Source: Thraustochytrium sp. TN22
Lineage: Eukaryota; Sar; Bigyra; Thraustochytrida; Thraustochytriidae
Assembly: GCA_013306675.1 (NCBI GenBank)
Contig: JABLUY010000004.1
Location: 248,001-312,000 of the forward strand
Direction of reading: 5' to 3'
DNA: 64,000 nt
This document shows, piece after piece, positions 2,015 through 28,976 of the stretch. How positions within the stretch are numbered: position 1 is the first letter of the stretch; every line of letters begins with the position of its first letter. The notes under the pieces are model-generated. The model was given only the letters and a program-made list of their open reading frames with translations, searched no databases and was not told the origin of the DNA. Both the position numbers and the translations under genes were made by a program.

Positions 2015-3163
2015 ATGTCCTTCGCAGACAAGTACATCGTGCGCAACTACACCACGACGGTGGAGTTCGCAGAGGCCGAGATCACGGACGGCGCGAGAGC
2101 GGTGTTGCTGGTGCAGAGCATGACGGCGTCGCTGACGCTGACGATTGGCTTGGCGGCGCTCGCCCTGCTTGCGCGCACGCGAGTCGCGCGATGGCGTGGT
2201 CTCCGGCCAGCACAAAAGAAGATCTTTTACCTGGTGCTGGGCCATGTGATCGCTTCTACGGTAGGCGTAGCCTTCATTGTGATGTTCGCACGGGCGCGCT
2301 TCTTCACGCCGCAGCAGTGGGCCGTGTGCTCGTACCTTAGCCTGGTCCCGTCGACAGGCTACATTGTCAGCACGGCACTGACGTATGCCATTTTCATCGT
2401 CCGCGCGTCGGCGACGCGCAGGATTGGGAGCCTCCCTTTGGCTGACAAGATCGTCTGGCAAGTCGTGGTCCTGGGCACCTACGGCATGGGAGGCTTTCTG
2501 GTGGTCTCGTGGCTACTCATGAAGGGCAAGGTTGCCTTCGGCAGCGTGTGCCACCAAGACTTTCCGCACTGGCTCTCACTTGTCTTCATCACCGGCGACA
2601 CCACGCTCTCGCTCGGCTTCCTCTACCTCTTCCTCGCGCCCGTGCTGCGCCAGCTGCGCTCCATGCGCGTGCACTCGCAGATCTCCAGCGGCAAGGAGCA
2701 GATGCACCGCATCGCCAAGCACAACCTCAAGTGGACCGCGGTCACGCTTGCCACAACCTCGGTTTTCATGCTCGGCGTGGCGGTCGTGCCACGAGAGAAC
2801 CCGACACTGGCGGACTACCACACACGCATGATGACATGGGCCATGCAGCCTGTCGATATGCTGGTCAAGATGGCCGGCACGCTCGCCATCACCACCGTGG
2901 TCTGGGACCCAAGAAGCAACAAGTACCGCAAGGACGCACGTCGCAGCTCCGCCTCGGTGCACCACGCGGGTTCGTCGCTCGTTCAGCACCGCGGAAGCGC
3001 CTCCCTCGAGAAGACCGTTCCGAACTCCCTCGAGCGCGTCGCCAGCGCTCCCTCCGACGACCTCGCGCCCGTCAAGACCTCCATAGAGAACGCGCTCGAT
3101 CAGACGCTCAAGGAGGGACGCCTCGAGAAAAAGCATACCGAATTGACTAGCTTCCATGCATGA
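2015..3163 (+). CDS. 7TM GPCR-like membrane protein, paralogue 1
   Basis: Putative receptor-like integral membrane protein of 382 residues; ligand and partner are unknown. The ATG at 2015 was chosen because all six paralogues begin with the same block, here MSFADKYIVRNYTTT, although the frame is open to 1820. Seven hydrophobic segments follow at about residues 30-52, 70-92, 107-128, 147-168, 186-212, 237-256 and 272-296. Family signatures are present: VPSTGYIVS before TM3, FGSVC after TM4, DTTLSLGFLYLFLAPVL in TM5 and QPVDM..MAGTLAITT in TM7. An N-glycosylation sequon (NYT, residue 11) sits in the short N-terminus, which fits an extracellular N-terminus. The C-terminal tail of about 85 residues is the longest of the set, rich in Ser, Arg and Lys. 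It is the most divergent paralogue: where copies 2-4 have LKRA after TM3 it has VRAS. Confidence 0.85.
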   Translation: MSFADKYIVRNYTTTVEFAEAEITDGARAVLLVQSMTASLTLTIGLAALALLARTRVARWRGLRPAQKKIFYLVLGHVIASTVGVAFIVMFARARFFTPQQWAVCSYLSLVPSTGYIVSTALTYAIFIVRASATRRIGSLPLADKIVWQVVVLGTYGMGGFLVVSWLLMKGKVAFGSVCHQDFPHWLSLVFITGDTTLSLGFLYLFLAPVLRQLRSMRVHSQISSGKEQMHRIAKHNLKWTAVTLATTSVFMLGVAVVPRENPTLADYHTRMMTWAMQPVDMLVKMAGTLAITTVVWDPRSNKYRKDARRSSASVHHAGSSLVQHRGSASLEKTVPNSLERVASAPSDDLAPVKTSIENALDQTLKEGRLEKKHTELTSFHA

Positions 3164-4117
3164 TCGAACTTTGAGCCTGCCAACCTCAGCTCCACCAGGT
3201 AGCGGACCAAACTCGTTGTTCAAACTTGAAGGGAAGACAAGATAAGATGGGAAGCTTGACTTTCTTCCTCGGTGCCGTAACGCTTATCCTGCGAGTTCTG
3301 CCAGGAAGTGGCCGCCCAGCTCGCTGTGTCCAGCGACTGGTAGTAGTAAGCTGGCACATCACCTGACTTAGTCCCGGCCTCTCTTGTGCTGCTTCCTGTG
3401 CGAGACTCGGACGGTCACGCGTGTCCCGATGACGAAGAAGTGCGCCGCGCGCTTCTCGTTCTGTGTGGAGCAGTAGAATTGCGCAAACCTGACACCGTTT
3501 CGCCAGCCAGACGTGATGACGACACTTGGCCAAGGGCTTGGCAGGTGCACCCCACAAATAGCCTTAAGAAGAGGCCCAACGGATACTTGGCTTGATCTCT
3601 ACTTCAGTCTGACAGAGGGTCGATCTGGCCTTTTGCTCATCGCTCTGGCCTTTTGCTCCGCCAGGACCTTTGAGAGAACCCTCCCGAAACAGACAGCGCG
3701 ACGCAGCTCTGTCGGTCGGAACGGTCCGGCCCCACTGCACGTGCGGAGACGGAGATCACCTTCTCGGAAGTGTTTGGCAAACCACAAGGAGGCGCCCGGC
3801 ACTATGCAGGGGACTGAACCGCTTTACTGTTAGTGCGCTGCACCGGACAGCGGGCAGGCCCAGCCAGCCTTTAAAGCAGGCGAATGGCGCCACCTGCTCC
3901 ATCTAGCGGTCGCTACTTCGTTGCTACTTCAGAGCTGCAGCTCGCTCCTGCAACGGACGGCGCCTGGAAAAAAAGTACCGGACACCTCAAAAGGCCAGGC
4001 GGTTGCGTCTCGAAGTGCGTGGAGTAACTTTTTCCTTGGATTCCATCCGAGTCGCAGCAGACTTGCATCAGCTGGCCGTCCGTCGACTGCCTGGCCGTCT
4101 GTGCCGAGCGTGTCATC
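3164..4117. other. Intergenic between 7TM paralogues 1 and 2
   Basis: No gene recognised in 950 bp. A short direct repeat (TCTGGCCTTTTGCTC, twice at about 3622-3660) and one CACGTG box at 3738-3743 are visible. Unlike the gap before paralogue 6, I saw no decayed 7TM copy. Confidence 0.4.
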
Positions 4118-5125
4118 ATGACGTTCTGGGCGGAATTTCGCGGCCACATCGCACGCACGTACAATACAACCGTGGACGAGAGGCAATGGCCCGTGACAGC
4201 GGAGGTAGAGCAGTTCCTCACGATCCAAGCAGCTATCAGCGCCATCGCGCTGCTTATTGACCTCGGCGTGATTGCCTACTTTCTGGTGGTGAGTCTGCGG
4301 CAGAAGCGGAGCCCCGCGCAGGAAGTCATCTTCCGGCTCACCCTAGGCCATGTGGTCTTTTTCGCGCTGAGCAATGCTTTTATCCTTGGCTTTTCGCTGG
4401 CCCGAACGCCGCCGGAGGACTGGCGCTGGTGCTCGTACGGCGCCACCTTCCCGTCGACCACGTATGTGCTGGGCAACGGGCTCATCTATGCGATCTTTCT
4501 AAAGCGAGCGGGCGTCGCCGGCATCGAGCGGAGCCGCCTCGGCAAGATCTTGTGGAAGTTCTGCCTCATCATGGTGTACAACTTGCCGGGCCTTCCCATT
4601 GTCATGTGGCTGGAGATCAAGGGCAGGATCACATACGACTCGGTGTGCTTCCAAGACCACTCCTGGGAGGTGGCTTCCATCTTCACCTTCATGGACACCA
4701 CGCTCTCTGCAGGCTTCCTCTTTCTCTTCTTGGAGCCCGTCCTGCAGCACATGAGGTTGATGCGCGGTTCCGCGGGAGGCGCCGCGAGCGCCGAGGCCAT
4801 GGCCAGGACGGCGCGGAAGAACCTCTTCTGGTCTTCCATCAACATTGTGTCCACGCTCGGGTATATGCTCAGCACAACTCTCTCGCCCAAGCTCATCAAA
4901 AAGGAGCCCGATACCTACCACTGGTACATGCTCGTCTGGATCCTCATGCCAGTGGACGGCCTCATCAACATGGTTGGCACGCTCGCTATCACTTCGGTAG
5001 CCTGGACGAGGCAGACCCGAGGCAAGAAAGGCAGGCACTCCATTACGACCACCTTGGCCAGAAACTCCAGCAAACGAAGCTCCCTCCAAGCCACCACCCA
5101 GGCCTCAGATGACAACAACAAGTGA
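4118..5125 (+). CDS. 7TM GPCR-like membrane protein, paralogue 2
   Basis: 335-residue member of the tandem family. The N-terminus MTFWAEFRGHIARTYNTTVD carries an NTT sequon near residue 16. Seven hydrophobic segments are spaced as in the paralogues. Signatures: FPSTTYVLGNGLIYAIFLKR around TM3, YDSVCFQDHSW in the TM4-TM5 loop (the usual HPWW is altered to HSWE), DTTLSAGFLFLFLEPVL in TM5 and MPVDGLINMVGTLAITS in TM7. The tail is about 45 residues, basic and Ser/Thr-rich, ending DDNNK, similar to the MDNK end of paralogue 4. The family is probably GPCR-like by topology, but no classical class A, B or C motif is visible, so function is inference. Confidence 0.85.
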   Translation: MTFWAEFRGHIARTYNTTVDERQWPVTAEVEQFLTIQAAISAIALLIDLGVIAYFLVVSLRQKRSPAQEVIFRLTLGHVVFFALSNAFILGFSLARTPPEDWRWCSYGATFPSTTYVLGNGLIYAIFLKRAGVAGIERSRLGKILWKFCLIMVYNLPGLPIVMWLEIKGRITYDSVCFQDHSWEVASIFTFMDTTLSAGFLFLFLEPVLQHMRLMRGSAGGAASAEAMARTARKNLFWSSINIVSTLGYMLSTTLSPKLIKKEPDTYHWYMLVWILMPVDGLINMVGTLAITSVAWTRQTRGKKGRHSITTTLARNSSKRSSLQATTQASDDNNK

Positions 5126-5741
5126 GCAAGCGCGACGAGCGCTCACCTCACAGCCCAGTCTGCGATGAATGAGGAGGTAAGGCACGACGAACGCAAAGGA
5201 CATCGCAAAGGGTTTACGGTGGGTCTCGCGCCCTCCGCCCATCCACATTCTTTGACAAAAAACAAACAAGTCTACCATGGTACTGGTTGGGTTCCACGCA
5301 TGCCACATTCTGTTCCTTTTCTTCCTGTGTCGAAGAGTCGAGCAGTAGGACATGAGTTTTTTGCCGCTTGCCAGGGCTCGCGCACAAGCAAAACACAATC
5401 GCTTGAGGCGCCATTTCCGTGCTCGTCCGGGCCCGGGGTGGATCCTAAAAATGGGCGACGCGTCGCTAAGGTGAACGGGCAAGACCGCCATATGCCAATG
5501 GCTTGCCAGTGGCCTGCCTGCTGCACTGACTGTGAGCAGGCACGTGCTGGTTGCACCGCACCGCCACTTTTCAGTGTCCGAACACGTGAACGGCTCTCAT
5601 CATGTGTTCTGGTCATGGCAAAACACTAAGCAGATCGCTGGACACGGAGGAGTTTCCTAGCGCACGTGCGGCCTGAGCGGACTGCTCGCTGCGCGCGCGC
5701 GCGCGCGCGCAGGGGCACGCGCGTGTGGCGCCACGGCTGTC
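5126..5741. other. Intergenic between 7TM paralogues 2 and 3
   Basis: No gene seen. It contains a CG dinucleotide run at about 5692-5711 and three CACGTG boxes listed separately. Confidence 0.4.
5541..5668. promoter_or_regulatory. Cluster of three CACGTG boxes upstream of 7TM paralogue 3
   Basis: CACGTG occurs at 5541-5546, 5583-5588 and 5663-5668, that is 74 to 201 bp before the start codon at 5742. CACGTG is the E-box/G-box bound by bHLH and bZIP factors in many eukaryotes. Three in 128 bp is dense even for GC-rich DNA. A regulatory role is inference. Confidence 0.3.
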
Positions 5742-6692
5742 ATGAAGTTCGCTGACGAGTATGTCGCGCGCACGGAGGCCATGCTCACAGAGCATGTGCA
5801 CGAGAGCGCGCCTGCTCGTGTACTCAGGTTCAGGGCCGTCGCGGCAGCGCTGAGTGGCATTGGGGTCGCCATCGGTGCCGTGGTGCTCTGCGCGTTGATG
5901 GTCCTGTACTTGAAGAACCCGGACCGGCCGTCGGGCCAGGCGGTACTCTTTCGCATGGTCCTGTGGCACGTTTTCTTCATGCTGATCAGCAATGCCGCCA
6001 TTCTCTACCCATCCACAACGAACTTTTCAAGCGACGAGTGGCAACTCTGCTCCTGGGCAGGTGGGGTCCCGCCAGCCTTTTACGTTGCGGCCAACGGGAT
6101 GAGCTATGCCATTTTCCTCAAGCGTGCCAGCACGACCAACGCGATCCGACAGCGTTCTCGCTTCGCGGCAGTGCTTTGGAAATTCGCGCTCTTGGGCACC
6201 TATTCGATCCCCCCCTTCTTCATCGCGATGCCCGTCTTCATTCGTGGCAAACTCGCTTTTGGGTCGGTGTGCACGCAGACTCACCCATGGTGGATGGCGG
6301 CCGTGTTCACCTTTCTCGATTCGTCCATTTCGCTCGCCTTTCTATACCTCTTCCTCGAGCCGGTGCTGCAACAAATGCGGCTCTCTTCGGACGCAACGAG
6401 CGCAGCTGTACGGATGCGAAAGACGGCGCGGTCCAACTTTTTTTGGACAGCGCTCACGATCTTCTCGACCTTCATCATCATGGTCATCATCACCATTCTG
6501 CCAACGAAGGAACAGTCCCTGAGCCTGTACCACACCCAAGTCATTCCTTGGGTGCTACAGCCGATGGACTCATTCGTTAACATGACAGGCACCTTGGCCA
6601 TCACGGCGTCCGTCTGGAAGCCCAAGAAGCCCCTGCTCCCGTCGACACACTTTGTCGCCACCAGCACCAAAATGGTCTCTGCCGACAAGTAA
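5742..6692 (+). CDS. 7TM GPCR-like membrane protein, paralogue 3
   Basis: 316-residue member, the shortest. It starts MKFADEYVARTEAMLTEHV, keeping the conserved EYVAR block but lacking the N-glycosylation sequon found in the other five. Seven hydrophobic segments are present. Signatures: VPPAFYVAANGMSYAIFLKR around TM3, FGSVCTQTHPWW in the TM4-TM5 loop, DSSISLAFLYLFLEPVL in TM5 and QPMDSFVNMTGTLAITASVW in TM7. The tail is short (about 28 residues). It resembles paralogue 4 most closely (shared HPWW, LEPVLQQMR). Putative surface receptor or sensor; ligand unknown. Confidence 0.85.
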   Translation: MKFADEYVARTEAMLTEHVHESAPARVLRFRAVAAALSGIGVAIGAVVLCALMVLYLKNPDRPSGQAVLFRMVLWHVFFMLISNAAILYPSTTNFSSDEWQLCSWAGGVPPAFYVAANGMSYAIFLKRASTTNAIRQRSRFAAVLWKFALLGTYSIPPFFIAMPVFIRGKLAFGSVCTQTHPWWMAAVFTFLDSSISLAFLYLFLEPVLQQMRLSSDATSAAVRMRKTARSNFFWTALTIFSTFIIMVIITILPTKEQSLSLYHTQVIPWVLQPMDSFVNMTGTLAITASVWKPKKPLLPSTHFVATSTKMVSADK

Positions 6693-7235
6693 TTAGTAAA
6701 AGTAAAGGCGCAGATTCCGTGGTGGGTCCCACCCTCTTTAACCGTGCACCTCCATTTACCCGTGGTACCCCACGTGTCCTGAAGGAGAGGGGCAGCGCAG
6801 CCGGGCTCGGCCGCCTGCAGCCGCCGCTCTCCGCCGCTCTCCGCCGCTCTCCGCGACACAGACCCCCGGCAGGCCCGGGACCGTGACAACGGCCCCAGTC
6901 GGCCGAACACCGTACTCCGGGGTGCACGAGCCGACAAGCCGACAGTGAGACTGGCTTGGAGCTGATCGAGATTCGGCGGCGTGCGAAGAGTGCAGACCGA
7001 GCCGTTCAGGTTGAGTTGGCGTCGTCCACCACCAGCTGTACTTTTGTCTTGACACAAACTGCACCGGCGAACACGAGGGACAGAGAGGTCCGTTGCAGCG
7101 GCTCATACACAGCCAATGCACCTTCCTCCGTATCGGACAAACGTAGGGTTCGACTGGCGTACGTGAAGCTGACAGCTTGTGGCGGGCGTCCCGCAAAGCG
7201 CTTGTTCTAAGGCTTCGGCCAGCGCCTTGGGAAGG
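6693..7235. other. Intergenic between 7TM paralogues 3 and 4
   Basis: No gene seen. Holds three tandem copies of a CCGCCGCTCT decamer at about 6820-6851 and one CACGTG at 6771-6776. Confidence 0.4.
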
Positions 7236-8213
7236 ATGAGCTTCTTCGATGAGTACATCGCGCGCAACGCGAACACCACGCTCGATGTCTGGGACACAGA
7301 CCCGACACCAAAGGCGCTGAGGTACAGGAGGGCCCAGGTAATCACGAGCACCGTGGCGACTCTCTATGGTGTGCCAGCACTCACGATGCTGGTGTATCTG
7401 TACTGCAAAGCTAAAGGCATGACACACGGAAAGAAGATCATATTCCGCATCCTGTTGCTGCACGTCAGCTTCATGGTCATCAGCAACGCGCTAATTCTCT
7501 ATTTTGCATTGACAGACATACCGAACGAGCAGTACAAGCTTTGCTCGTGGCTCGGCACGGTGCCTTCGACCTTCTACGTGGCCGGGAACGGGTGGAACTA
7601 TGCCATCTTCCTCAAGCGCGCCAGGTCCGCGCAGGCCTTTGGCAAGCAGACCCGCTTCGCCACCATGCTTTACAAGTTCGCATACATCGGTACCATGGGC
7701 ATCCCCTTCTTTTTCGGTATCATGTGGCTGTTCATGCACGGCAGGCTCATTTTCGGCTCCATCTGCATGGTTGAGCACCCGTGGTGGCTAGCGGCCGTCT
7801 TCGCCTCCATTGACACCACCGTGTCGCTGGCCTTTCTTTATCTCTTCCTTGAGCCAGTGCTGCAGCAGATGCGTGTGGTCTCCACGTGCAGCTCGGCTTC
7901 CTCCGGCACGAGACTCATGATGCGCCACACGGCGCGCAAAAACCTGTTCTGGTCCTTCGTCACCATTGCGTCCACCTTCATGTTCATGCTCACCGTCACC
8001 TTTGTCCCATTGAAGTCCCGGACGGTGGAGACCTATCACACTCACATCATCAGCTGGCTCGCACAACCCTTGGACTCGCTCACCAACATGATTGGGACCA
8101 TGGCCATCACATCCTCCGTCTGGATCCCCAACGCCAGGGTGTCAGGCGTTCCAAAGCAGATCCAAGCCAGCTACAGAGTCAGCAGCGGTAGAAAATCCAT
8201 GGACAACAAATAG
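7236..8213 (+). CDS. 7TM GPCR-like membrane protein, paralogue 4
   Basis: 325 residues from the ATG at 7236, where the conserved start MSFFDEYIARNANTTLD lies; the frame is open upstream to 7179 but without family similarity. The NTT sequon near residue 13 fits an outside N-terminus. Seven hydrophobic segments. Signatures: VPSTFYVAGNGWNYAIFLKR around TM3, FGSICMVEHPWW after TM4, DTTVSLAFLYLFLEPVL in TM5 and QPLDSLTNMIGTMAITSSVW in TM7. The C-terminal tail is short, basic and Ser-rich, ending MDNK. It groups with paralogue 3. Confidence 0.87.
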   Translation: MSFFDEYIARNANTTLDVWDTDPTPKALRYRRAQVITSTVATLYGVPALTMLVYLYCKAKGMTHGKKIIFRILLLHVSFMVISNALILYFALTDIPNEQYKLCSWLGTVPSTFYVAGNGWNYAIFLKRARSAQAFGKQTRFATMLYKFAYIGTMGIPFFFGIMWLFMHGRLIFGSICMVEHPWWLAAVFASIDTTVSLAFLYLFLEPVLQQMRVVSTCSSASSGTRLMMRHTARKNLFWSFVTIASTFMFMLTVTFVPLKSRTVETYHTHIISWLAQPLDSLTNMIGTMAITSSVWIPNARVSGVPKQIQASYRVSSGRKSMDNK

Positions 8214-8288
8214 TCGGAGCATTCCTTTTCATCTCCTGTGCTTCCTCGTCAATGGATCTTTTTCATCGCCAAAGTTGAAGCACATGTG

Positions 8289-8387
<99 letters not shown>

Positions 8388-9181
8388 CCTGAGACTCGGG
8401 CTGACTCGGATTCCAGACAATGCCTCCGCGAACGCACGGCCCAGGTCCCGGCCTTGCCGATCGTCAACTCGTCATCATCCCTCGTCACAGTCAGGGCCCA
8501 GGTGAAGCGGAATATCCCTCAAGAGCGAAAAAGTCGGAATCCCCAGCGATGAGGCAGGCAATGGGTGCCGTGGCGGTTGCTTGTGGCTGCATCAATTGCT
8601 CGTACAGAGATAGTCCCGCCTCCCCCACCCACCCCCAGTCCGAAGCCTATTCAAAACGAAGGAACGCCAGGATGCGTGGCAGAGCGGTCACTCGCGGGCC
8701 GCGCCAGTTGCTCTTACGCCTGTCTTTGCCGGCCCGTAGAGGTCGCGCGCACTTGCCCGTCGCTTCCAGGACGATGCACGCTTCCACTTGGCCCTCGGAC
8801 GCGCCGTCGCTGGTGTCCGGTGAAATGTCCGGTTTCCAAATTGCTGCTGGGCCACTGGCAGTGGGTGACGACGTTTCGCGTCACATCTGCGAACAGAAAG
8901 ACGCTGCTCAGCAGCCGCCCTGACTCTCCAGACGCTAAGCAATCCGCCGAAACTGTTCGAGATGTGGCAGGGTGCAAGCAAACTTGTCCGGCGGTGCCGG
9001 GTTGGACCAGAACAGCAAGTGACCGCGCGGTGGAACGGTAGGACGTGCGCTGCGCGACGAGAGGGAGGCGCGGCCAGGCGGAGCAAGAGCTCCTCGCTGC
9101 GCTGGGCGAGGCGAGACAAGGAAAGTGCGAAGCGGCGCGACGGGGAGAACCAAGAGAGAGCTGATCGCGCAAATTCAACAC
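8214..9181. other. Intergenic between 7TM paralogues 4 and 5
   Basis: Contains a long GA microsatellite (listed separately) soon after the stop codon. The rest has short open frames without recognisable proteins. No decayed 7TM copy was seen. Confidence 0.4.
8288..8385. repeat. GA microsatellite, about 98 bp
   Basis: Nearly pure GA dinucleotide run interrupted twice by an extra A (GAAAGA). It lies about 75 bp after the stop of 7TM paralogue 4, so it may be transcribed in its 3' end. Confidence 0.97.
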
Positions 9182-10276
9182 ATGAGCTGGTTTGTGGCAG
9201 AGTACTTGGCACGGAACGAGAATGTGACAGTGGACGCCGCAGATGAATCCATCACAGAAGCGCTAGAGCAGAACATCGTCATCACGACGTTCACAGGCGG
9301 CGTAGGAACTTTCATCGGCCTATGCTTTGTGGTGTATCTGCTTCTGATCAGTTGCCGCGCGCATTGTCTGCGTCCGTCACAGCGCTGGATTTTGCTGCTG
9401 GTGTCCGCGCAGGTCGGCTGCATGACCACAGGTTGCGCTGTCATCCTTGGCTTTGCAGTTCTTCCCCTCAAATCTACGTCATGGAAACTCTGCAACTATC
9501 TTGGGGCGGCTCCTGCGCTCTGCTATTGCTTTGGCAACTACTTCAGCTACCTGATCTTCCTCATTCGCGCCAAGGGCTCCTACCGCATGGATACGAGCTG
9601 GCTAACGCACACTCTGTGGAAGCTTGCCGTTCTTGGGACCTACAGCATGCCGCTGCTGCTCGTCTTTCTCATCGTAACAGTGAATGGCAAGCTCGTGCAC
9701 GGGAAGGTGTGCGTGCAGGACCACCCATGGTGGCTTGCACTAGTCTTCTCCATTCTCGACACGGGTCTGTCCTCCATCTTCTTATATCTCTTCCTCGCGC
9801 CAGTGCTCTCCCACATGCGCTCGATGCGCAAGGCTCAAGTTTCCCTCGCACATAGTGCACAGCGCATGCAGGCTGTGGCCAGGCGCAACTTGATGTGGAG
9901 CTCCTTTTCCATCTTCTCGACCATGGTCACACTGCTGACCGTCTCTATTGCGCCGGCGCTCGAGAGCGGCACGCAGACCTACCACCTGTTGCAGCTTACC
10001 TGGGTCGTCCAGCCCGTTGACTCCGTCTGCAACATGGTCGCCGTACTTGCCATCACCAGCAATGCATGGGCGCATCGCACCACCAGCGATGGCGGCGGCA
10101 GTAACGTTAGCACTGGTTCGGGTGTGTCTCGCAGATTCTCTGCAATCAGCATCATGTCTCGCAAGCACCTCTCCCGGGTCAATAGCACGAAAGACCCTAC
10201 CAATCAACCGACCACCTCTTCGCCGCCCGATCAACTGCACAACGAGTCCATCCTCGCAGCGTCGAGTGCGAAATAG
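9182..10276 (+). CDS. 7TM GPCR-like membrane protein, paralogue 5
   Basis: 364 residues from the ATG at 9182 (MSWFVAEYLARNENVTVD), the conserved family start; the NVT sequon is near residue 14. Predicted membrane segments lie at about 39-61, 80-103, 113-136, 155-178, 196-220, 246-268 and 281-306. Signatures: NYFSYLIFLIRAKGSYRM after TM3, VHGKVCVQDHPWW after TM4, DTGLSSIFLYLFLAPVL in TM5, TYHLLQLTWVVQPVDSVCNM in TM7. The Ser/Thr-rich tail is about 60 residues long. With paralogue 6 and the decayed copy it forms a distinct subgroup marked by RPSQRWILLLV at TM2 and IRAKGSYRM. Confidence 0.87.
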   Translation: MSWFVAEYLARNENVTVDAADESITEALEQNIVITTFTGGVGTFIGLCFVVYLLLISCRAHCLRPSQRWILLLVSAQVGCMTTGCAVILGFAVLPLKSTSWKLCNYLGAAPALCYCFGNYFSYLIFLIRAKGSYRMDTSWLTHTLWKLAVLGTYSMPLLLVFLIVTVNGKLVHGKVCVQDHPWWLALVFSILDTGLSSIFLYLFLAPVLSHMRSMRKAQVSLAHSAQRMQAVARRNLMWSSFSIFSTMVTLLTVSIAPALESGTQTYHLLQLTWVVQPVDSVCNMVAVLAITSNAWAHRTTSDGGGSNVSTGSGVSRRFSAISIMSRKHLSRVNSTKDPTNQPTTSSPPDQLHNESILAASSAK

Positions 10277-10794
10277 TCACGCCCTTTGAGAAATGAAAAG
10301 TTGCAATGGCACTCCAACTGCACTGCTTTTGTGCGCAAGCGTGGCGCTATTTGCCGCCCCTGCTCTGCTTGTGAGAGGGAAAGCTACCGGTAGGCCCTCC
10401 ACGAACGAAAAGTTGCCTCTTTTCCTGACCAGGCAGGAGATCCAGGCGAAGCGAAGCCAGCCTGGGTGGTTTCTTTGCAATTGATTGCTGGCAGCAGCAG
10501 CGTGTCCCGTTTTGCAGCGAGACCTCAGCGAGCCTCACGCCTTCTTCTACCTTGGGCCTTTGAAAAGAGCAGGTGGTGCGCTCTGCAAGATGTAAAAGGC
10601 GACTGCAATGGAAGAGTCAAGAGCCGAGCGCAGAGAGAAAGCTTGCACCGTGGAAGCCCCGCGCTCCTCGAGAAAAGAGCGTTGCGCTGCTTGCCTGAGC
10701 TTCACGAGGCGAGGAGGCAAGGCGATGAGAGGGAAAGCCAAGGCAGGGCTCACGCTCCAAGCACGCAGACGAAAAATGGGGTATCAAGGTGCTG
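10277..10794. other. Intergenic upstream of decayed 7TM copy
   Basis: No convincing gene. A short open frame at 10293-10484 has a hydrophobic N-terminus (LLLCASVALFAAPALLV) but no recognised family. The 5' part of the decayed 7TM copy may extend weakly into this stretch. Confidence 0.35.
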
Positions 10795-11360
10795 CACTCC
10801 GATCGAGAACTGATTGGCGACAGAGTTCCAGACGCGAACTACTTCGTATCAGCGCGGTCCCTCGGCCAGAGCTTTGGTATCTGCGTTGCAAGCGTCTCCC
10901 TCATCGCGCCAAGGCACCTCAAGAAAGCTCGCGAACAAGCTGCATTAGACAGCCAGGATTGAGATCCTCAGCTCTGCGGTCGTCCTCATCACCCTCGTCC
11001 TCGCGGTACGCTCGCGCATGGCAGCGTGCATGTGCAGGACCGAACGCCCCGAGCGGCCAGCCGACTTTAGCGTGGAGGCAGTGCTATCCGCGTCAAGTTT
11101 GCTGTTGGCGCAAATGCGCTTCCTGCGCAGGGCTTCTGTCGCTGCTGTGCTCCGTTAGCAGCCCATTGTGCAACCCAACCTCGGACGTCCTTGGCCACGG
11201 GCCACCTTCTCCACCAACCATGATCTTCCTCCTGCCCGTGACGACTGCACCGGAGCTCCAAGATGACAACAAGATGCTACCATTTGCTGCAGCCCACCTG
11301 GCATTCCTTGTTTGTAGTCGCCATCTGTTTGGGTTCTTCCGCATCTGCACCCTGGTTTCT
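10795..11360 (+). pseudogene. Decayed 7TM paralogue (subgroup of paralogues 5 and 6)
   Basis: Nucleotide similarity to paralogue 6 runs in the same order for about 560 bp but is scattered over shifted frames with stops. Matching stretches include AACTACTTCG...CTCGGCCAGAGCTTTGG (against the TM3 region), CTCCCTCATCGCGCCAAGGC (IFLIRAKG region), ATTGAGATCCT...GTCCTCATCACCCTCGTCCT (TM4), GCATGGCAGCGTGCATGTGC (the VHGSVCVQD block), TTGGCGCAAATGCGCTTCCT (LAQMRSLR), AACCTCGGACGTCCTT and CCACCTTCTCCACCA (TM6) and CTACCATTTGCTGCAGCCCA (YHLLQ, TM7). Fragments of the protein such as LLLAQMRFLRRASVAAVL are still legible. The N-terminal third is not recognisable. It lies between paralogues 5 and 6, as expected for a local tandem duplicate. 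Confidence 0.8.
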
Positions 11361-11937
11361 GCTCTTGCACATGGACAAAAGCGGGTCGCGCGGACCCAAG
11401 CGTCGACAGGAGCATCACCTCAGCACAGCCAACTTTTCACAACGAGAAGAGGCCAATCTCGGCATTGACTCCTGCGAGTGCGAGCGGAAGTTGGCAGAAG
11501 CGCCCTCTGCTCTCGCGGCCTATACACAACCGCAATGAGCACCTGGCCTGCCTCATTTGCCCTTGAAGAGCATTTCCTTGCCTTCACCCATGGCTCGCTG
11601 CAGGGGAGATCCGTTCGATCGCTCGAGTCAAGCGCAGCCAGGCTGTGTGACCTTTTTGTGTACATGGTAGTGAAAGTTCCGTTGATGGTCCTCTGTCCAG
11701 GTCAACCGCACCCTGCCAGCGGCGTGCGAGCAAAGATAACGTTAGCGTACTCGAGCGAGGCACTGGCTCTTGCGTACCTGCATACACTGGTGTTCACTTC
11801 GAGCTGGCTGGCGCGGCGGCGCGGCCCGCACCCTGGCTGTACTGGCTAGTGTGACAGGTCGAGACGAAGAGAGAAAAAGCGAGCCTGGTGCCGCAGAGCT
11901 TAATGGACGCAAAGGCGGCGGCATCGCCGCGCCGCGC

Positions 11938-11970
11938 AAGGCGAGGCGAGGCGAGGCGAGGCGAGGCGAG
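11938..11970. repeat. GGCGA pentamer microsatellite
   Basis: Six or so tandem GGCGA units, about 155-190 bp before the start of 7TM paralogue 6. Confidence 0.9.
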
Positions 11971-11977
11971 AAGTGGT

Positions 11978-12009
11978 GTGACGTGGCGTGACGTGGCGTG
12001 ACGCGGCGA
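11978..12009. promoter_or_regulatory. Tandem TGACGTGG (CRE/G-box-like) motifs
   Basis: Three 10-bp units (GTGACGTGGC, GTGACGTGGC, GTGACGCGGC), about 120-150 bp upstream of the ATG at 12126. TGACGTGG is the hybrid C-box/G-box site recognised by bZIP factors. The same 10-mer occurs inverted (CCACGTCACG, 1555-1564) about 450 bp before 7TM paralogue 1. The regulatory role is inferred from motif only. Confidence 0.35.
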
Positions 12010-12125
12010 GAGGAAGCGGAGCGAGGCTACCTGAGCCGAGGCGAGGCGAGGCACAGGAGGCTTCGTCTTAATTAAAGGCGGTGCTCATCTCTTCGTTGAC
12101 AAGGTGTAGACGCCTCGCTAGGTAG

Positions 12126-13208
12126 ATGAGCTCGTTTGTGGCCGAGTATTTAGCACGCAACGAGAATGTGACGGTGGATGTGGCTGATGTGCCCATCCCA
12201 GAGGCGCTGGAACAGAGCCTCTGGTACACGAAATGGACGGCTGGCATCACAAGCGTGTTCGGTGTTTTCGTTCTGATATATTTACTCTCCTTTAGCTGTC
12301 GTATGCGGTGCCTGAAGCCGTCGCAGCGGTGGATTCTGCTGCTAGTCTTCGTGCTGGTTACCTCCATGACATTAGGGTGCGTCCTTATCTTCGGCTTTGC
12401 GCTCTTTCGCCTCGAGCCGACATCCTGGGCGCTGTGCAACTATCTCGGTTCGGTGCCTTCCTTCGGCTACTGCTTCGGAAACTATATCAGCTATCGCATC
12501 TTCCTCATTCGCGCAAAAGGCTCTTACCGCATGGAGACAAGCAGACTATCGTACGCGCTGTGGCGAACAGCAGTGATTGGGACCTATGGCATGCCGGTAT
12601 TGCTGCTCATACTGGTTTGCACGGTCAACGGCAAGCTCGTGCATGGTAGCGTGTGCGTTCAGGACCACCCGTGGTGGCTCGCGCTCTCCTTCTCCATTAT
12701 GGACACGGGTCTGTCCACGATCTTTCTCTACCTCTTCCTCGCACCGGTCCTGGCGCAGATGCGCTCTTTGCGCGAGGCTCGTGTCGCCGCCACGCTCAGC
12801 AGCCAGCGCGTGCGGACCGTGGCTCAGCGTAACCTCTTTTGGACGTCCTTCACCATCTTCTCCACCATGGCCTTCCTCTTGACGGTCTCCATCGCGCCTG
12901 CGCTCGAGAGCGGCACCAAGGCGTACCATCTGTTGCAGCTCACGTGGGTCACACAGCCCGTGGATTCTCTCTGCAACATGATTGGCGTCCTTGCCATCAC
13001 TAGCAACGTCTGGGCGACCCCGGGCACCAGCCGCATTATCATCTGGAGTAAGCCGCGGAAGTACCCTGCTGCCAGCACCAGGCTCCGCAAGGTCTATTCC
13101 CAGTTGACCAGCAGCGGTACCAGCCACCACCACCGCACCTTGCCGAAGGACGGCCCGCACAGCGAGCCCATTCTTGCACGGCCACCGTGCTCCGGTCAAG
13201 GTCCGTAG
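12126..13208 (+). CDS. 7TM GPCR-like membrane protein, paralogue 6
   Basis: 360 residues. It starts MSSFVAEYLARNENVTVD, nearly identical to paralogue 5, with the NVT sequon near residue 14. Seven hydrophobic segments have the same spacing as paralogue 5. Signatures: KPSQRWILLLVFVLV at TM2, NYISYRIFLIRAKGSYRM after TM3, VHGSVCVQDHPWW after TM4, DTGLSTIFLYLFLAPVLAQM in TM5 and QPVDSLCNMIGVLAITSNVW in TM7. The tail is Arg/Ser/His-rich. The close match to paralogue 5 indicates a fairly recent duplication; the decayed copy between them belongs to the same subgroup. Confidence 0.87.
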   Translation: MSSFVAEYLARNENVTVDVADVPIPEALEQSLWYTKWTAGITSVFGVFVLIYLLSFSCRMRCLKPSQRWILLLVFVLVTSMTLGCVLIFGFALFRLEPTSWALCNYLGSVPSFGYCFGNYISYRIFLIRAKGSYRMETSRLSYALWRTAVIGTYGMPVLLLILVCTVNGKLVHGSVCVQDHPWWLALSFSIMDTGLSTIFLYLFLAPVLAQMRSLREARVAATLSSQRVRTVAQRNLFWTSFTIFSTMAFLLTVSIAPALESGTKAYHLLQLTWVTQPVDSLCNMIGVLAITSNVWATPGTSRIIIWSKPRKYPAASTRLRKVYSQLTSSGTSHHHRTLPKDGPHSEPILARPPCSGQGP

Positions 13209-14274: not shown

Positions 14275-14652
14275 ATGCTGGAGGGAAGCATGGGCAAGGA
14301 GGGCGACCGACTGAACCTGAGGTTCCTGTTTGCGAACTATGACGGCGTGTACGTGATCCTGGACTTCGCGCTGGACGCCGCGCAGGATGAGGTGAAGCAG
14401 AAGCTGCTCGACAACTGGCCGGCGCAGGTCGAGAAGCCCACGGACCCGAGGCGCATCCGGCTGCTGTGCATGGGCAAGGAGCTGGAGAGCTCCTCGTCCA
14501 AAACGCTCAAGCAGGCCAAAATCCCCTTTTACGAGACGCACCCGACGCCCGTCAACGTGTCCGTGCTGCCCAAGCAGTTCTCGCCGTCCGTGGCGGCCAC
14601 GACCGAGAGCCCCGTGAGCAGTAAGGCCGGTCCCTGCTGTCTGCTCATGTGA
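14275..14652 (+). CDS. UBL3/MUB-type membrane-anchored ubiquitin-fold protein
   Basis: 125-residue ubiquitin-like protein expected at membranes through C-terminal lipids. The fold block resembles animal UBL3 and plant MUBs: LNLRFLFANYDG, a LLDNWPAQ segment matching the DNWP of human UBL3, IRLLCMGKELE, and LKQAKIPF followed by a terminal beta strand. It ends SKAGPCCLLM: the last four residues CLLM form a CaaX box for prenylation, and the preceding Cys is a likely palmitoylation site, the same CC arrangement as UBL3 (CCVIL). In animals UBL3 acts as a sorting modifier for extracellular vesicles and in plants MUBs recruit E2 enzymes; which applies here is unknown. The start could also be the ATG at 14290 (MGKEG). 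Confidence 0.88.
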   Translation: MLEGSMGKEGDRLNLRFLFANYDGVYVILDFALDAAQDEVKQKLLDNWPAQVEKPTDPRRIRLLCMGKELESSSSKTLKQAKIPFYETHPTPVNVSVLPKQFSPSVAATTESPVSSKAGPCCLLM

Positions 14653-14994: not shown

Positions 14995-17088
14995 TCAGAG
15001 CGACATGCGCCGACTCAGCTTGGACCGGTACGAGTTGGTGGAGTCGAACTTGGAGATGCAGACTGCAAAGGCCTCAAAGGGCGAGAACGGGTGGCGCGCA
15101 AGCACGAAGAAGCGCTCCTTGCCGATGCGCGCCAGGCCGAGCTCCGGCGCAGACGACTGGTCCACGGGCGCCTGGCCCAGCTCAAAGTTCTTGATGCTGG
15201 GCGCCACCGGGAAGCGCGACTCGTTCGAGACGGCCAGGCGCTTCTTGGTGCCCATGGGGATGTTGCGCATGGACAAAAACGTATTCTCGGCCGTCTGTAG
15301 GAACGGGTGGTGCTCGAGGTCCTCCTCGGCCTCCATGACGCGCTCCTGGATGGAGAAGTTGTGGCACTTGGCCAGCGTCTTGAACTGCGTGCGCAGCGGG
15401 TCCATCGACGCCTCCACCTGGTCCTTGGGCAGACGGGGCGCCTTGGGCAGCGCCACAGTCATGGCGAGGTCCTCCGAGATGCCGCGCGCGTCCTCGTACA
15501 CGACCGAGGCCAGCAGCTTGCGCGCGAAGCCCACAGGTGGCTCGCCGCGGCCGCCGCCCACGCGGTTCGGGTTGTACCCGTCGTCGTACACCACGTACTG
15601 CATCGGCCCGGCCAGGCCCAGGGCGTCCGCGCCCCGGATCAGCTGCACCTTGCCAAAGTACCGCTCCGACCGCCCCGAGCACCGCTTCTTGAAGTCCACC
15701 GGCTCCAGCGAGATCACGTACGTCGGCTTCATGGTCAGACCCCCGCGGCACTTGGCGATCATCAGCGTCATGCGTTTGTCGCGCATCCCGTCGCCGCGCT
15801 CCACCGGCAAAATGAACGAGTAATATACGCTCCCGGAATGATCGTAGTGCCGGTCGATCTGCGCCTTGAGCGTCACGCCCTCCGGCACCGGCTCGTAGAG
15901 CAGCTTGCGCAGCTTGCGGATGCGCTCTGCCATCTCCTGCGACGGGTCCTGCACGCCCGAAAACTCGTCCACGTACAGATCGTCGCGCACCGCCGCCGGG
16001 AGCTTCGGGTTCCACGCCGTGTGCGCGCCCTGCGCACCGTGCGCCCCGCAGTCATCCTCGTCCTCGTCCTCCTCTCCCTCCTCCCCCTCCTCCTCCTCCT
16101 CCTCCTCGTCCTCCTCCTCGTCCTCCTGGACATCGTGCATGGCGTGACTGCCCTCCAGGTCCTCCTCGATGAGGTCGTCCTCTTCCGCGCTGGACATGCG
16201 CTGCGCACGCCGCTCGCGATGGGCTGCCTCGAGCGCCTCAAACGACCCGGGCGCCGGCGCCCTGGTCGGCGCCTCCACGTCTTCCGCCTCCGCGTCGCTA
16301 CCGCCCTTTTCTTCTTCTTCCTCGGACGCCTTGGCCTCCTCGTCCTTCTTGCTGTGCCGCGAGCTCTTCTTCGACTTGCGCGCCTTGCGCTCTGCGGCGG
16401 TCTCCTCGTCCGAACTCGCCAGCGGCTCGTCCTGCAGCACGCTCTGCTCGCACAAGGTCTGCGGCTTCTCCTTCTTCTTCTTCTTGTCCTTCTTCTTCTT
16501 CTTCTTGTCCTTGTCCGCGTCGGCGTCCTTGTCGTGCTTCTTCTTCTTCTTCTTGTCATGCTTCTTCTCCGAGGAGGACGAACGGTGCTTGGACGACCGC
16601 CGCGCCTCCCGGTCCTCGCCCGCGTCGTCGTTGTCATCGTCGGAGCCCTCCTCGCGCCGCCGCCGCCGCTCCTCGCGCCGTCGCTCGCGTCGCAGCTGCG
16701 CCTCCTCGTCCTCCTCCTCGTCCTCCGCGCCCTCCTTCTTCTCGCGCTTCTTGTGCTTCTTGTCCTTGCTCTTGTGCTTCTTCTCCTTCTCCTCGCCCTC
16801 CTCGCCGTCGCGCTTGCGGTGCTTGCGGTCCTTCTTCTCCTCCTCCTCCGCCCCCTCCCCCTCCGCGCCCTCGCGGTTATTGCCGGCCTTGGCCGAGGAT
16901 GACGACGAGGACTTCTTCTTCTTCTTGCTCTTCTTGCCGTCATCCGTCTCGCCCTCGCCCTTGTCCTTGTGCCGGTGCTTGCGCTCCTTCTTGCGCCCCT
17001 CCTGGTCCTCCTCGCGCCGCTCCGAGCGCTCCTTGCGCGACGCCGGCCCGTCCAGCTCCTCGCCCGCCATGGCCACCGTTTCCGCCAT
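14995..17088 (-). CDS. Tubby-domain (TULP-like) protein with charged N-terminus
   Basis: 697 residues. About residues 1-390 are low-complexity and highly charged: long Lys/Glu/Asp runs (KKKKKKHDKDADADKDKKK, an acidic block of over 25 Glu/Asp). About residues 405-690 form a tubby domain: KCRGGLTMKPTYVISLEP, ERYFGKVQLI, MQYVVYDDGYNPNR, RKLLASVVYEDARGI, SRFPVAPSIKNFELGQ and, at the end, RIGKERFFVLARHPFSPFEAFAVCISKFDS, matching the tubby C-terminal QFG+...F..D...P....AFAIALSSFDS pattern. Tubby proteins bind phosphoinositides and in many eukaryotes deliver membrane receptors to cilia. The basic N-terminus could serve nuclear import or RNA binding. The domain is near the C-terminus, as usual for the family. 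Confidence 0.85.
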   Translation of the reverse strand: MAETVAMAGEELDGPASRKERSERREEDQEGRKKERKHRHKDKGEGETDDGKKSKKKKKSSSSSSAKAGNNREGAEGEGAEEEEKKDRKHRKRDGEEGEEKEKKHKSKDKKHKKREKKEGAEDEEEDEEAQLRRERRREERRRRREEGSDDDNDDAGEDREARRSSKHRSSSSEKKHDKKKKKKHDKDADADKDKKKKKKDKKKKKEKPQTLCEQSVLQDEPLASSDEETAAERKARKSKKSSRHSKKDEEAKASEEEEEKGGSDAEAEDVEAPTRAPAPGSFEALEAAHRERRAQRMSSAEEDDLIEEDLEGSHAMHDVQEDEEEDEEEEEEEGEEGEEDEDEDDCGAHGAQGAHTAWNPKLPAAVRDDLYVDEFSGVQDPSQEMAERIRKLRKLLYEPVPEGVTLKAQIDRHYDHSGSVYYSFILPVERGDGMRDKRMTLMIAKCRGGLTMKPTYVISLEPVDFKKRCSGRSERYFGKVQLIRGADALGLAGPMQYVVYDDGYNPNRVGGGRGEPPVGFARKLLASVVYEDARGISEDLAMTVALPKAPRLPKDQVEASMDPLRTQFKTLAKCHNFSIQERVMEAEEDLEHHPFLQTAENTFLSMRNIPMGTKKRLAVSNESRFPVAPSIKNFELGQAPVDQSSAPELGLARIGKERFFVLARHPFSPFEAFAVCISKFDSTNSYRSKLSRRMSL

Positions 17089-25443: not shown

Positions 25444-25811
25444 TGAACTTGTCCGCGTCATTGTGATCCGAGGCGCGCCGCGATCCGAGCACTGCACAAT
25501 GCACATGCCATGACGCGGCCAGCGGCGGTTGAGTGGGGAATCAGCGCCTCGAACTTGCTGGGCCTTGCTGGTTGAAGGATCTGAACGAGGCCGGCCAGCG
25601 GCGACGAAGATGACGATAAACAACCCGGGCTCTGACAGTGAGTTAGTGACAGACAGAGTCTCTTCTTACTCGCTGTGACAGCTGTCCGAGTCCGAGTCAT
25701 GATCTTGCTTGTCTGGCCTGATGACGGCGCTGCGATCTTCTCGACGGCCAGCTTGTGCATCTCTCTCGAAAGGTCCGGTCGGAGGTACGGCGGCGCGGTG
25801 TCCCGGTTGGG

Positions 25812-25861
25812 CTTCGGGAATGTGCACGAAGTGGCGGGTGCCAACGTAGACATTCGCGAAG
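25812..25861 (+). promoter_or_regulatory. Candidate heat-shock elements of HSP70
   Basis: A gapped element cTTCggGAAt-gtgca-cGAAg spans 25812-25831 (nTTCn, nGAAn, five-base gap, nGAAn). A second TTCGCGAA lies at 25853-25860. These are about 170-220 bp before the HSP70 start, in the usual range for HSF binding. Presence is direct; function is inference from the HSF consensus. Confidence 0.5.
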
Positions 25862-25979
25862 GGCGGGGCCTAGGCGCCTCGTAGCGAGAACGGTAGGGCG
25901 GCGGATCCTGGGCGGCGGCGGCCCTGGTGGCGGGGAGAGAGCGAGAGGAGCGGGGCGGCAACGGCAGAACAGAATCGAT

Positions 25980-26028
25980 CGAGCAGCAGGAGCAGAAGAG
26001 CAGCAAGCAGCAGCAGCAGCAGCAGCAA
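25980..26028. repeat. CAG-rich 5' leader of HSP70
   Basis: GCAG/CAG repeats end with seven uninterrupted CAG-type units immediately before the ATG; probably in the 5' UTR. Confidence 0.8.
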
Positions 26029-26029
26029 G

Positions 26030-27300
26030 ATGTCGGTGGAGGGCATTGGCATCGGCATTGACCTCGGCACCACGTACTCGTGCGTGGGCTGCTGGCAGAA
26101 CGACAGCGTGGAGATCATCGCCAACGACCAGGGCAACCGCACGACGCCCAGCTATGTCGCGTTCACGAGCACCGAGCGCCTGATCGGCGACGCCGCCAAG
26201 TCGCAGGTGTCGATGAACCCGCACAACACCATCTTCGACGCCAAGCGCCTCATCGGCCGCAAGTTCTCGGACGCGTCGACCCAGTCGGACCTCAAGTACT
26301 TCCCGTTCAAGGTCGAGGCCGGCCCCAACGACAAGCCCATCATCAAGGTCGAGTACAAGGGCGAGGAGAAGACCTTCGCCGCCGAGGAGATCTCCTCGAT
26401 GGTGCTTACCAAGATGAAGCAGACGGCCGAGAGCTACCTCGGCGAGGAGGTCAAGAACGCCGTCATCACCGTGCCGGCGTACTTTAACGACTCGCAGCGC
26501 CAGGCCACCAAGGACGCCGGCGTGATCGCGGGCCTCAACGTGCTCCGCATCATCAACGAGCCGACCGCGGCCGCCATCGCCTACGGCCTCGACAAGAAGG
26601 AGGGCGAGCGCAACGTGCTCATCTTCGACCTCGGCGGCGGCACCTTCGATGTCTCGCTCCTCACCATCGAGGAGGGCATCTTCGAGGTCAAGGCCACCGC
26701 CGGCGACACCCACCTGGGCGGCGAGGACTTCGACAACCGCCTGGTCGAGTACTTCATGCAGGAGTTCAAGCGCAAGTTCAAGAAGGACATGAGCAACAAC
26801 GAGCGCGCCAAGCGCCGCCTGCGCACCGCCTGCGAGCGCGCCAAGCGCACGCTCTCGGCCTCGGCCCAGGCCCACATTGAGATCGACGGCCTCTTCGAGG
26901 GCATCGACTTCACCTCGTCCATCTCGCGCGCCCGCTTCGAGGACCTCAACATGGACTACTTCAAGGCCACCATGGAGCCCGTCGAGAAGGTGCTCCGCGA
27001 CGCCAAGATGAGCAAGGGCTCCGTCCACGAGATCGTCCTCGTCGGCGGCTCCACCCGCATCCCCAAGGTGCAGGCCATGCTCAAGGAGTTCTTCAACGGC
27101 AAGGAGCCGTGCCGCAGCATCAACCCGGATGAGGCCGTCGCCTACGGCGCCACCGTCCAGGCTGCCATCCTCACCACCGGCTCGGACTCGGCCAAGCTCA
27201 ACGACCTCCTCCTCCTCGACGTGACCGCGCTCTCGCTCGGCCTCGAGACCGCCGGCGGTGTCATGACCAAGCTCATCGAGCGCAACACCACCATCCCCTG

Positions 27301-27333
<33 letters not shown>

Positions 27334-27979
27334 CAACCAGCCCGGTGTGCTCATCCAGGTCTTCGAGGGCGAGCGCCCGCTCACCAAGGACAACAACCTC
27401 CTCGGCAAGTTCCACCTCGACGGCATCCCCCCCATGCCGCGCGGCGTGCCCCAGATCGAGGTCACCTACGATCTCGACGCCAACGGCATCCTCAACGTCT
27501 CCGCCGTCGAGAAGAGCACCGGCAAGGAGAACAAGATCACCATCACCAACGACAAGGGCCGCCTCTCCAAGGAGGAGGTCGAGCGCATGGTCGCCGAGGC
27601 CGAGAAGTACGCCCAGGAGGACAACGCCGTCAAGGAGCGCATCGAGGCCCGCAACACCCTCGAGAACACCACCTACTCGCTCAAGTCCTCCCTCAACGAG
27701 GAGAAGCTCAAGTCCGCCATCCCGGAGGCCGACCTCAAGAAGCTCAACGACAAGATCGACGAGGTCCTCGCCTTCCTCGAGCAGAACCCCGAGGGCGACA
27801 ACAAGGAGATGTTCGAGGAGAAGCAGAAGGAGCTCGACGCCATCTCCCACCCCATCCTCCAGGCCGCCATGGGCGGCGCCGGCGGCATGCCCGGTGGCAT
27901 GCCGGGTGGCATGCCGGGCGCTGGCGCTCCGGGCGCGGGCAACCCGACCACTGAGGCCACCGTCGAGGAGGTCGACTAA
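26030..27979 (+). CDS. HSP70: Cytosolic HSP70 chaperone
   Basis: 649 residues, standard length. ATP-dependent chaperone that binds unfolded polypeptides with J-protein and exchange-factor partners. All three signatures are present: [11 protein letters not shown] (near residue 10), [14 protein letters not shown] (near 200) and [13 protein letters not shown] (near 340). The linker [20 protein letters not shown] leads to the substrate-binding domain ([20 protein letters not shown]). The C-terminal lid ends in GGMP repeats and EEVD, the tetrapeptide bound by TPR co-chaperones and diagnostic of the cytosolic class. There is no targeting signal and no intron. Start: first ATG after the CAG leader. 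Confidence 0.98.
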
Positions 27980-28976
27980 GTTCCCCCGCCCCCTCTCTCG
28001 ATCGAACGTGACATAACTTAGCTGCTGCGCATTGTGCAACATCAACACCATGTCTTTTGCCTTTTGACTTTTCTCTGCTTCCCTGTTTCATTCCTTTCTT
28101 GTCTTGTTGGGAGGCGCGCTCTTCTGCCTCGCGCCGCTTCGCCGCGCGCCTTGCGAGTCCCTCTGTCGGCCCAGCCAGGCATGGCTAAGCCGAGCGCCGT
28201 CAGGCTAGAGGAGGCGTAGAGGAGGCGTAGAGGAGGCGTAGAGGAGGCGTAGAGGAGGCGGGCGGCTGGGCCTGGCGCGACGCGGGCCTGCCTACTTGTC
28301 GTCTGAGGAGGAGGTCGCGAGTGATGCAGATCAGATCAGCTGCAGCGCTCTGCCAGTGTGGCACTGCGTGGCACGCGTCCGAGTCGGCGAGTCGCCCTCC
28401 TGCAACTTGAACTTGAAGACAACCACTCCAAGTCACTCGGCACTCGTCGATCCTCTTCCAGGCTCGACTCAGGCTCGCAGTCTGCTAGCCTACTCGCCGG
28501 CGTGGCTGACTCGCACCGCGATTGCACCCGTGCACGGCGTGCAGTGCCCTCACTGTCAGTGGCGGTGCAATTGCAGTGCAGCGCAGCGCTCTGCTTCGCG
28601 GTCAAGTCGGCTGCCGCTGGTCGTGCCCGGCGCGCCCGTGACCAGCGGCAGCGGCAGCAGCGGCAGCAGCGCGCTCCGAGCGTGCCGCTCCGAGTCGTGC
28701 CAGTGCCCGTGCCGGCGCCGCGGCACTGGCGCTGCACTTCAGTGGTGACCGTGACACGCGCGCTCACGCATCCACGGTCACGCGCGGCGCCAGCTGCTGT
28801 GCAGTGGTAAGTTGCGAGCCGAGAGCCGAGTTGGAGAGCGGCCACGAGCGAGGGAGGGCGCGAGCCCGCGCGGCGCGCTGGCAACGCAGAAGCCGCCGGC
28901 GAGCGGCAGAAGCGTAACCGGGCCAGCGCGGATCGGCGGCAGGCACGGCGCGCGAGCGAGCGGCGAGCGAGCAAGC
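27980..28976. other. Intergenic between HSP70 and TPR gene
   Basis: No gene recognised. A 12-bp minisatellite lies at about 28203-28262. The frame of the TPR gene is open upstream to 28812 but is not family-like there. Confidence 0.4.
28203..28262. repeat. 12-bp minisatellite
   Basis: About five tandem copies of GAGGAGGCGTAG, 220 bp after the HSP70 stop. Confidence 0.92.

Follow-up and report, generated by a model that had tools for sequence, protein, structure and literature searches.

A tandem array of six predicted seven-helix receptor genes in Thraustochytrium sp. TN22 and its divergent family

A pair of cysteines that joins the third transmembrane helix (TM3) to the second extracellular loop (ECL2) by a disulphide bond is a hallmark of G-protein-coupled receptors (GPCRs). 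In class A receptors the TM3 cysteine, C3.25, lies 25 residues before the arginine R3.50, and the motifs DRY, CWxP and NPxxY are those of the class. Protists contain GPCR families outside those characterised previously, according to a report on choanoflagellates (PMC12716839). Here we analyze a stretch of 64,000 nucleotides from the thraustochytrid Thraustochytrium sp. TN22 (assembly GCA_013306675.1, contig JABLUY010000004.1, positions 248,001 to 312,000; hereafter the window), in which an array of six related genes between positions 2015 and 13208 codes for predicted seven-helix, receptor-like proteins. We consider it likely that the six genes belong to a GPCR family of about 28 members, divergent from the classes modelled in Pfam, whose products would bind ligands outside the cell and act through G-alpha proteins, and which would have grown by tandem duplication.

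The array consists of the following genes.

Positions 2015 to 3163, plus strand: copy 1, 382 residues, seven-helix receptor-like protein, without GN in TM3.
Positions 4118 to 5125, plus strand: copy 2, a paralogue of 335 residues.
Positions 5742 to 6692, plus strand: copy 3, a paralogue of 316 residues, 47% identical to copy 4.
Positions 7236 to 8213, plus strand: copy 4, a paralogue of 325 residues, whose closest relative is on another contig, C27 (58%).
Positions 9182 to 10276, plus strand: copy 5, a paralogue of 364 residues, 62% identical to copy 6.
Positions 12126 to 13208, plus strand: copy 6, a paralogue of 360 residues.

All six start with ATG, have no in-frame stops and consist of a single exon on the plus strand, in agreement with the original prediction, made from the window alone, of six same-strand, intron-free paralogues. 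In copy 1 an upstream ATG at 1964 is possible; the internal ATG at 2015 aligns with the starts of the other copies.

Searching the assembly (37.9 Mb, 453 contigs) with copy 4 yielded 29 matches on seven contigs, i.e., 14 on C55, six on the contig of the window, three on C220, two each on C255 and C229, and one each on C27 and C170. Queries from two other clusters yielded 30 and 25 matches, at the same loci plus one extra fragment of 38 residues on C55. As the three queries reach the same loci, the family seems to be complete with about 28 genes, mostly clustered, on seven contigs. In 26 members the open frame runs across the seven helices, and these proteins, with start codons that we chose, form the aligned set used below. 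Two of the matches on C55 (L029 and L020), between which GTAAGT and CAG occur 118 bases apart, probably represent one gene in two exons. Another C55 member, L022, has an interrupted frame with two stops in the extended match, and at L027 on C220 one match continues beyond the stop of the gene. When the 26 proteins were compared with the window using tblastn, each copy of the array drew 25 to 26 matched stretches. Together with the pairwise identities among the six copies (35-62%) and the 42 invariant columns of their alignment, this argues that the array is not a product of chance.

Structure predictions support a GPCR fold with seven transmembrane helices for the family. AlphaFold models of copy 4 (predicted local distance difference test, pLDDT, 88.8; predicted template modelling score, pTM, 0.85) and copy 1 (pLDDT 83.2, pTM 0.77) both contain seven helices; copy 1 also has a long C-terminal tail, whose C-terminal helix is of low confidence. 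Among the 50 PDB entries listed by Foldseek for each model, all titles for copy 1 and 49 for copy 4 were GPCRs, the remaining title reading only 'a peptide receptor complex'. In the structural comparison copy 4 scored 17.9 with the best class A receptor and 16.6 with both Ste2 and GABA-B, and copy 1 scored 17.4, 16.3 and 16.1, respectively. A viral library gave matches to herpesvirus and giant-virus proteins, several of them named GPCRs (best E 4.6e-4), which have the general fold in common. The original prediction had named two findings that would speak against it, a different fold such as that of a transporter and orthology of the copies to different known families; both models are GPCR-like, and the copies form one family. 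The proteins are polytopic, as transporters are, and yet a non-receptor transporter fold is very improbable, given that both seven-helix models have GPCR neighbours and that the transporter-like Pfam matches among the 26 members are single and at chance level (E 0.051 or weaker).

The distribution of charged residues supports a topology with the N-terminus outside and the C-terminus inside. Over the 26 members the mean number of lysines plus arginines is 5.3, 5.0 and 6.3 in the inner loops and 5.0 in the tail, against 1.2, 0.2 and 1.2 in the outer loops. The N-terminus, of roughly 34 residues, has a mean of 3.9 basic and 5.8 acidic residues. The segments were cut using the hydropathy of the alignment, which gave nine spans that were merged to seven, TM3 (with a weak peak) and TM4 each being split; single proteins gave 7 to 17 hydropathy peaks, too fragmented for use. 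N-terminal glycosylation sequons are present in only 11 of the 26 members and do not mark the family.

Three conserved residues are pertinent to the fold, with codons in copy 4 as follows.

Positions 7542 to 7544, plus strand: Cys103, at the outer end of TM3 and the position of C3.25; cysteine in 26 of 26 members.
Positions 7617 to 7619, plus strand: Arg128, at the inner end of TM3 and the position of R3.50; arginine in 25 of 26 members.
Positions 7764 to 7766, plus strand: Cys177, within the beta hairpin of ECL2; cysteine in 26 of 26 members.

The hairpin is formed in the model of copy 4 by strands 168-172 and 176-180. The spacing from Cys103 to Arg128 is 25 residues in every member, and the same spacing between cysteine and arginine occurs in the genome's own class A receptor, L042. 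We infer from the aligned sequences that the family has a TM3-ECL2 disulphide. The seven-helix, receptor-like character claimed in the original prediction is thus borne out by two confident fold predictions with GPCR matches, the charge pattern, the cysteine pair and the near-invariant arginine. These features also bear on the idea of a light sensor or pump akin to type I (microbial) rhodopsins, to which we give almost no credence. Such proteins are recognised by a retinal-binding lysine in TM7, and the core of TM7 is devoid of lysine in 22 of the 26 members; the outer cysteine pair is of the GPCR type; no Pfam rhodopsin model was matched at E up to 0.15; and no microbial rhodopsin was present among the 50 structures listed for either model.

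DRY, CWxP and NPxxY are each found in 0 of 26 members. Other polar residues are conserved in the helices, namely, an invariant Asn236 in TM6, Asp193 in TM5 (20 of 26), and Asp280 and Asn284 in TM7 (23 and 22 of 26, respectively). The inner halves of the helices are more conserved than the outer halves (2.09 versus 1.76 bits over 79 and 80 columns; p = 0.006, with columns that are not independent and helix limits that we set), the excess being largest in TM6 and TM5 and not seen in TM7. The stronger conservation of the inner halves fits a common inner coupling face combined with a varied outer pocket.

The original prediction could not place the genes in a classical GPCR class, and neither could we, using all 26 members and controls from the same genome. 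In the complete list of Pfam matches at E up to 0.15, no member matched a GPCR model; 21 Pfam families were matched at this threshold, none better than 0.0013, and 32 at E up to 1. The six copies of the window matched no GPCR model even at E up to 10. Weak matches, for instance to DUF5665 (E 0.0013, 19.2 bits versus a cut-off of 27), Orbi_NS3 (best E 0.0015) and DUF3792, occur here and there among the members and were rejected as membrane-helix noise. No sequence of a PDB chain was matched up to E 10 by the family profile, and none by copy 6 alone. As positive controls, L042 matched PF00001 at 3.5e-22 and L040 matched the class E model PF05462 at 2.2e-23, in addition to 7tm_2 at 4.6e-16. The family is of the GPCR kind by its predicted fold, yet its sequences fail the Pfam tests for classes A, C, D and E. 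As to the class A control, L042 (positions 1114-2994 of contig C92) is a clear class A GPCR in a protist, with the beta-1 adrenergic receptor as a PDB match (3.6e-16), which also serves as the positive control for the PDB search, and a second, partial class A match under the cut-off, L044, lies near it.

Alternatively, the family might lie within class A, D or E, as a branch that has diverged very far, and not be a family apart; such a placement is compatible with our preferred explanation. We regard it as rather unlikely, in view of the absence of GPCR model matches at a threshold that the class A and class E controls passed by a wide margin; comparison of the family profile with the two control receptors also gave a probability of only 0.2-0.3%, a test of low power with one sequence on one side. 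A tentative proposal, which we hold to be somewhat less likely than not, is that these genes form a separate, hitherto undescribed GPCR class of labyrinthulomycetes with switches of its own (the TM3 arginine without DRY, the TM6 asparagine and, where NPxxY would be expected, a DxxxN in TM7) and a tandem chemosensory repertoire. Such a class would be a single-cell parallel to the odorant receptor clusters of animals. In the open-licence literature we found no description of the receptor family, and a single-protein query, whose reach is limited to close relatives, found none in viral and prokaryote collections; other labyrinthulomycetes may have related genes whose products are so far unnamed.

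The genome is well equipped for G-protein signalling. Over the cut-off we found 15 matches to G-alpha, corresponding to 12 nearly full-length loci, one of them in two matches, along with 45 RGS domains, 37 class C loci, 2 class E loci and 1 class A locus. GPCR domains and G-alpha genes are described as enriched in thraustochytrids in a published report (PMC6050695). Given the size of the family, its GPCR fold and its hallmarks, it most likely acts on these G proteins. In the mechanism that we propose, the short N-terminus of each protein lies outside the cell and is followed by seven helices, with TM3 linked to ECL2 by a disulphide and a cytoplasmic face that is basic. A small molecule or peptide would bind on the outer side. 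The helices would then rearrange around the TM3 arginine and activate one of the many G-alpha proteins of the genome, the signal being turned off by RGS proteins. The family would have expanded by tandem duplication in the manner of chemoreceptor repertoires. The three GPCR domains of the thraustochytrid enrichment report are presumably those of class C.

The family resembles those of chemoreceptors in its tandem growth, its dead copy and its clusters on several contigs. By this analogy the divergent family is probably chemosensory, and the receptors of the array may serve as the cell's sensors of surrounding chemicals. Location at the surface, coupling to G proteins, sensing of environmental chemicals and the nature of the ligands are all aspects that we infer. 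A different reading is that these GPCR-like seven-helix proteins have no coupling to G proteins and act, for example, as scaffolds, in lipid handling or in trafficking at internal membranes. A common fold proves no function, no match assigns one to the family, and the usual activation motifs of class A are missing. Nevertheless, the TM3 arginine is kept in all members but one and the outer cysteine pair in all, the genome is rich in G-alpha and RGS proteins, and the family has many copies, arranged in tandem and diversified, which is not the case for most housekeeping proteins; we consider non-coupling proteins improbable and retain G-protein-coupled receptors as the preferred explanation.

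A family of about 28 genes that is invisible to Pfam would be overlooked by receptor surveys that count with such models. If its members do signal through G proteins, they represent an unclassified branch of the GPCR tree that keeps few GPCR hallmarks, and they are candidates for the receptors that guide taxis and settlement of zoospores in a group of ecological and industrial importance. Chemotaxis of thraustochytrid zoospores was reportedly the subject of work by Fan and co-workers in 2002, to go by its title as cited in PMC12221091.

The stretch between copies 5 and 6 is the only one in the window, beyond the six copies, that was matched in the tblastn comparison. By its sequence it is a pseudogene of the array, a feature absent from the original prediction.

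Positions 10844 to 11328, plus strand: core of a decayed seventh copy, interrupted by stops and a change of frame; copy 6 is the one closest to it.

With copy 6 as the query, the E values in two tblastn searches were 5.1e-5 and 9.6e-7. When the first 891 bases of copy 6 were aligned locally with this DNA, the score was 953; 100 shuffles that preserve dinucleotides scored 689 +/- 28 (maximum 774), and the query in reverse scored 679. With copy 5 the corresponding values were 821, 704 +/- 26 (maximum 784) and 734. Three short, colinear blastn pieces of copy 6 were also found (E up to 4.8e-4), two of which were recovered on repeat. The pseudogene may extend from 10362 to 11392, with outer limits that are rough because the gap costs let shuffled sequence align at length too, as the mean of 689 indicates.

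In the tree, the six copies group with the C27 gene (support 96/97), and 10 of the 11 included C55 genes form one group (100/99), the remaining one being a long branch. The subgroups of the original prediction were correct: copies 5 and 6 pair (100/100), and copies 3 and 4 group together with the C27 gene (99/98), but copy 4 is nearer to the latter than to copy 3 (58% versus 47% identity). The claim that copy 1 is the most divergent is weak. Its branch is the longest (1.0, versus 0.73 for copy 2), but its identity to the other copies of the window, 35-41%, hardly differs from that of copy 2 (36-40%). The motifs quoted as common to the six proteins are a majority consensus and not universal. 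The start block EYxAR is exact in four copies, copy 1 having KYIVR and copy 2 an insertion and HIAR; in the loop given as FGSVC..HPWW, C is separated from HPWW by three residues, not two, and with this spacing the motif is exact in copy 3 only; GN of the TM3 block is absent from copy 3 as well as copy 1; and in the TM7 block copy 1 has K in place of N.

The ratio of nonsynonymous to synonymous substitution rates (dN/dS) was 0.25-0.40 in all seven pairs sampled, as rough values (dS above 1 in three pairs; YN00 values for three of the seven). The sampled genes are therefore under constraint, and the sequences of these seven pairs show purifying selection. The C55 members L014, L017 and L019 are very recent duplicates, 87-91% identical, one of which is inverted relative to the others. 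The 7-mers upstream of 24 of the 26 genes were mostly G+C-rich words, with no clear common promoter motif.

Two genes lie beside the array. One (14275-14652, plus strand) codes for a ubiquitin-like protein (PF13881, 5.9e-12) with a prenylation-like CLLM end, which we take to be of the UBL3/MUB type, and the other (14995-17088, minus strand) for a Tubby-family protein (PF01167, 1.2e-16). Farther along the window is an HSP70 gene (26030-27979, plus strand; PF00012, 4.3e-257). The frame opposite it (25697-28051, minus strand) gives a match to PF10712 ('NAD-specific glutamate dehydrogenase'; 8.2e-140), which looks like an antisense artefact in that Pfam family. An open frame of 4711 residues with an ATG start occupies 42665-56800 (plus strand), and a frame of 1770 residues that overlaps it on the opposite strand matched no Pfam model at E up to 1e-4. 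A cyclic nucleotide phosphodiesterase is encoded at 58073-61210 (minus strand; PF00233, 1.5e-66) and is possibly part of the output of G-protein signalling. Elsewhere in the genome, two FabA domains occur within one frame of 1719 residues, a layout that we assume to be that of the thraustochytrid polyunsaturated fatty acid synthase; no light-harvesting protein was found in the genome. Together with the many class C receptors and G-alpha genes, these two features fit a heterotrophic thraustochytrid.

How the family compares with described receptors can be stated class by class, the Pfam counts being those at E up to 0.15. Class C receptors (metabotropic glutamate and GABA-B-like) are likewise expanded in this genome, but their 37 loci are other genes, and the family has an N-terminus of only about 34 residues and no match to PF00003 (0 of 26). 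Ste2, of class D, differs from the family in sequence (8% identity), and the Ste2 and Ste3 models matched 0 of 26 members, a count that had no class D positive control. The class E cyclic AMP receptors of Dictyostelium have in common with the family seven helices, occurrence in a protist and a short N-terminus, but PF05462 matched none of the members and the family profile has no similarity to L040. Class A receptors such as OXGR1, P2Y14, GPR3 and CXCR3 resemble it in predicted fold, outer N-terminus, outer cysteine pair, an arginine 25 residues after the TM3 cysteine and the ECL2 beta hairpin, and differ from it in that the family lacks PF00001 matches (0 of 26) and the DRY, CWxP and NPxxY motifs. 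The choanoflagellate families RSF, GPRch1-3, Hi-GOLD and GPCR-TKL/K (PMC12716839) are another set of protist GPCRs outside the classical classes.

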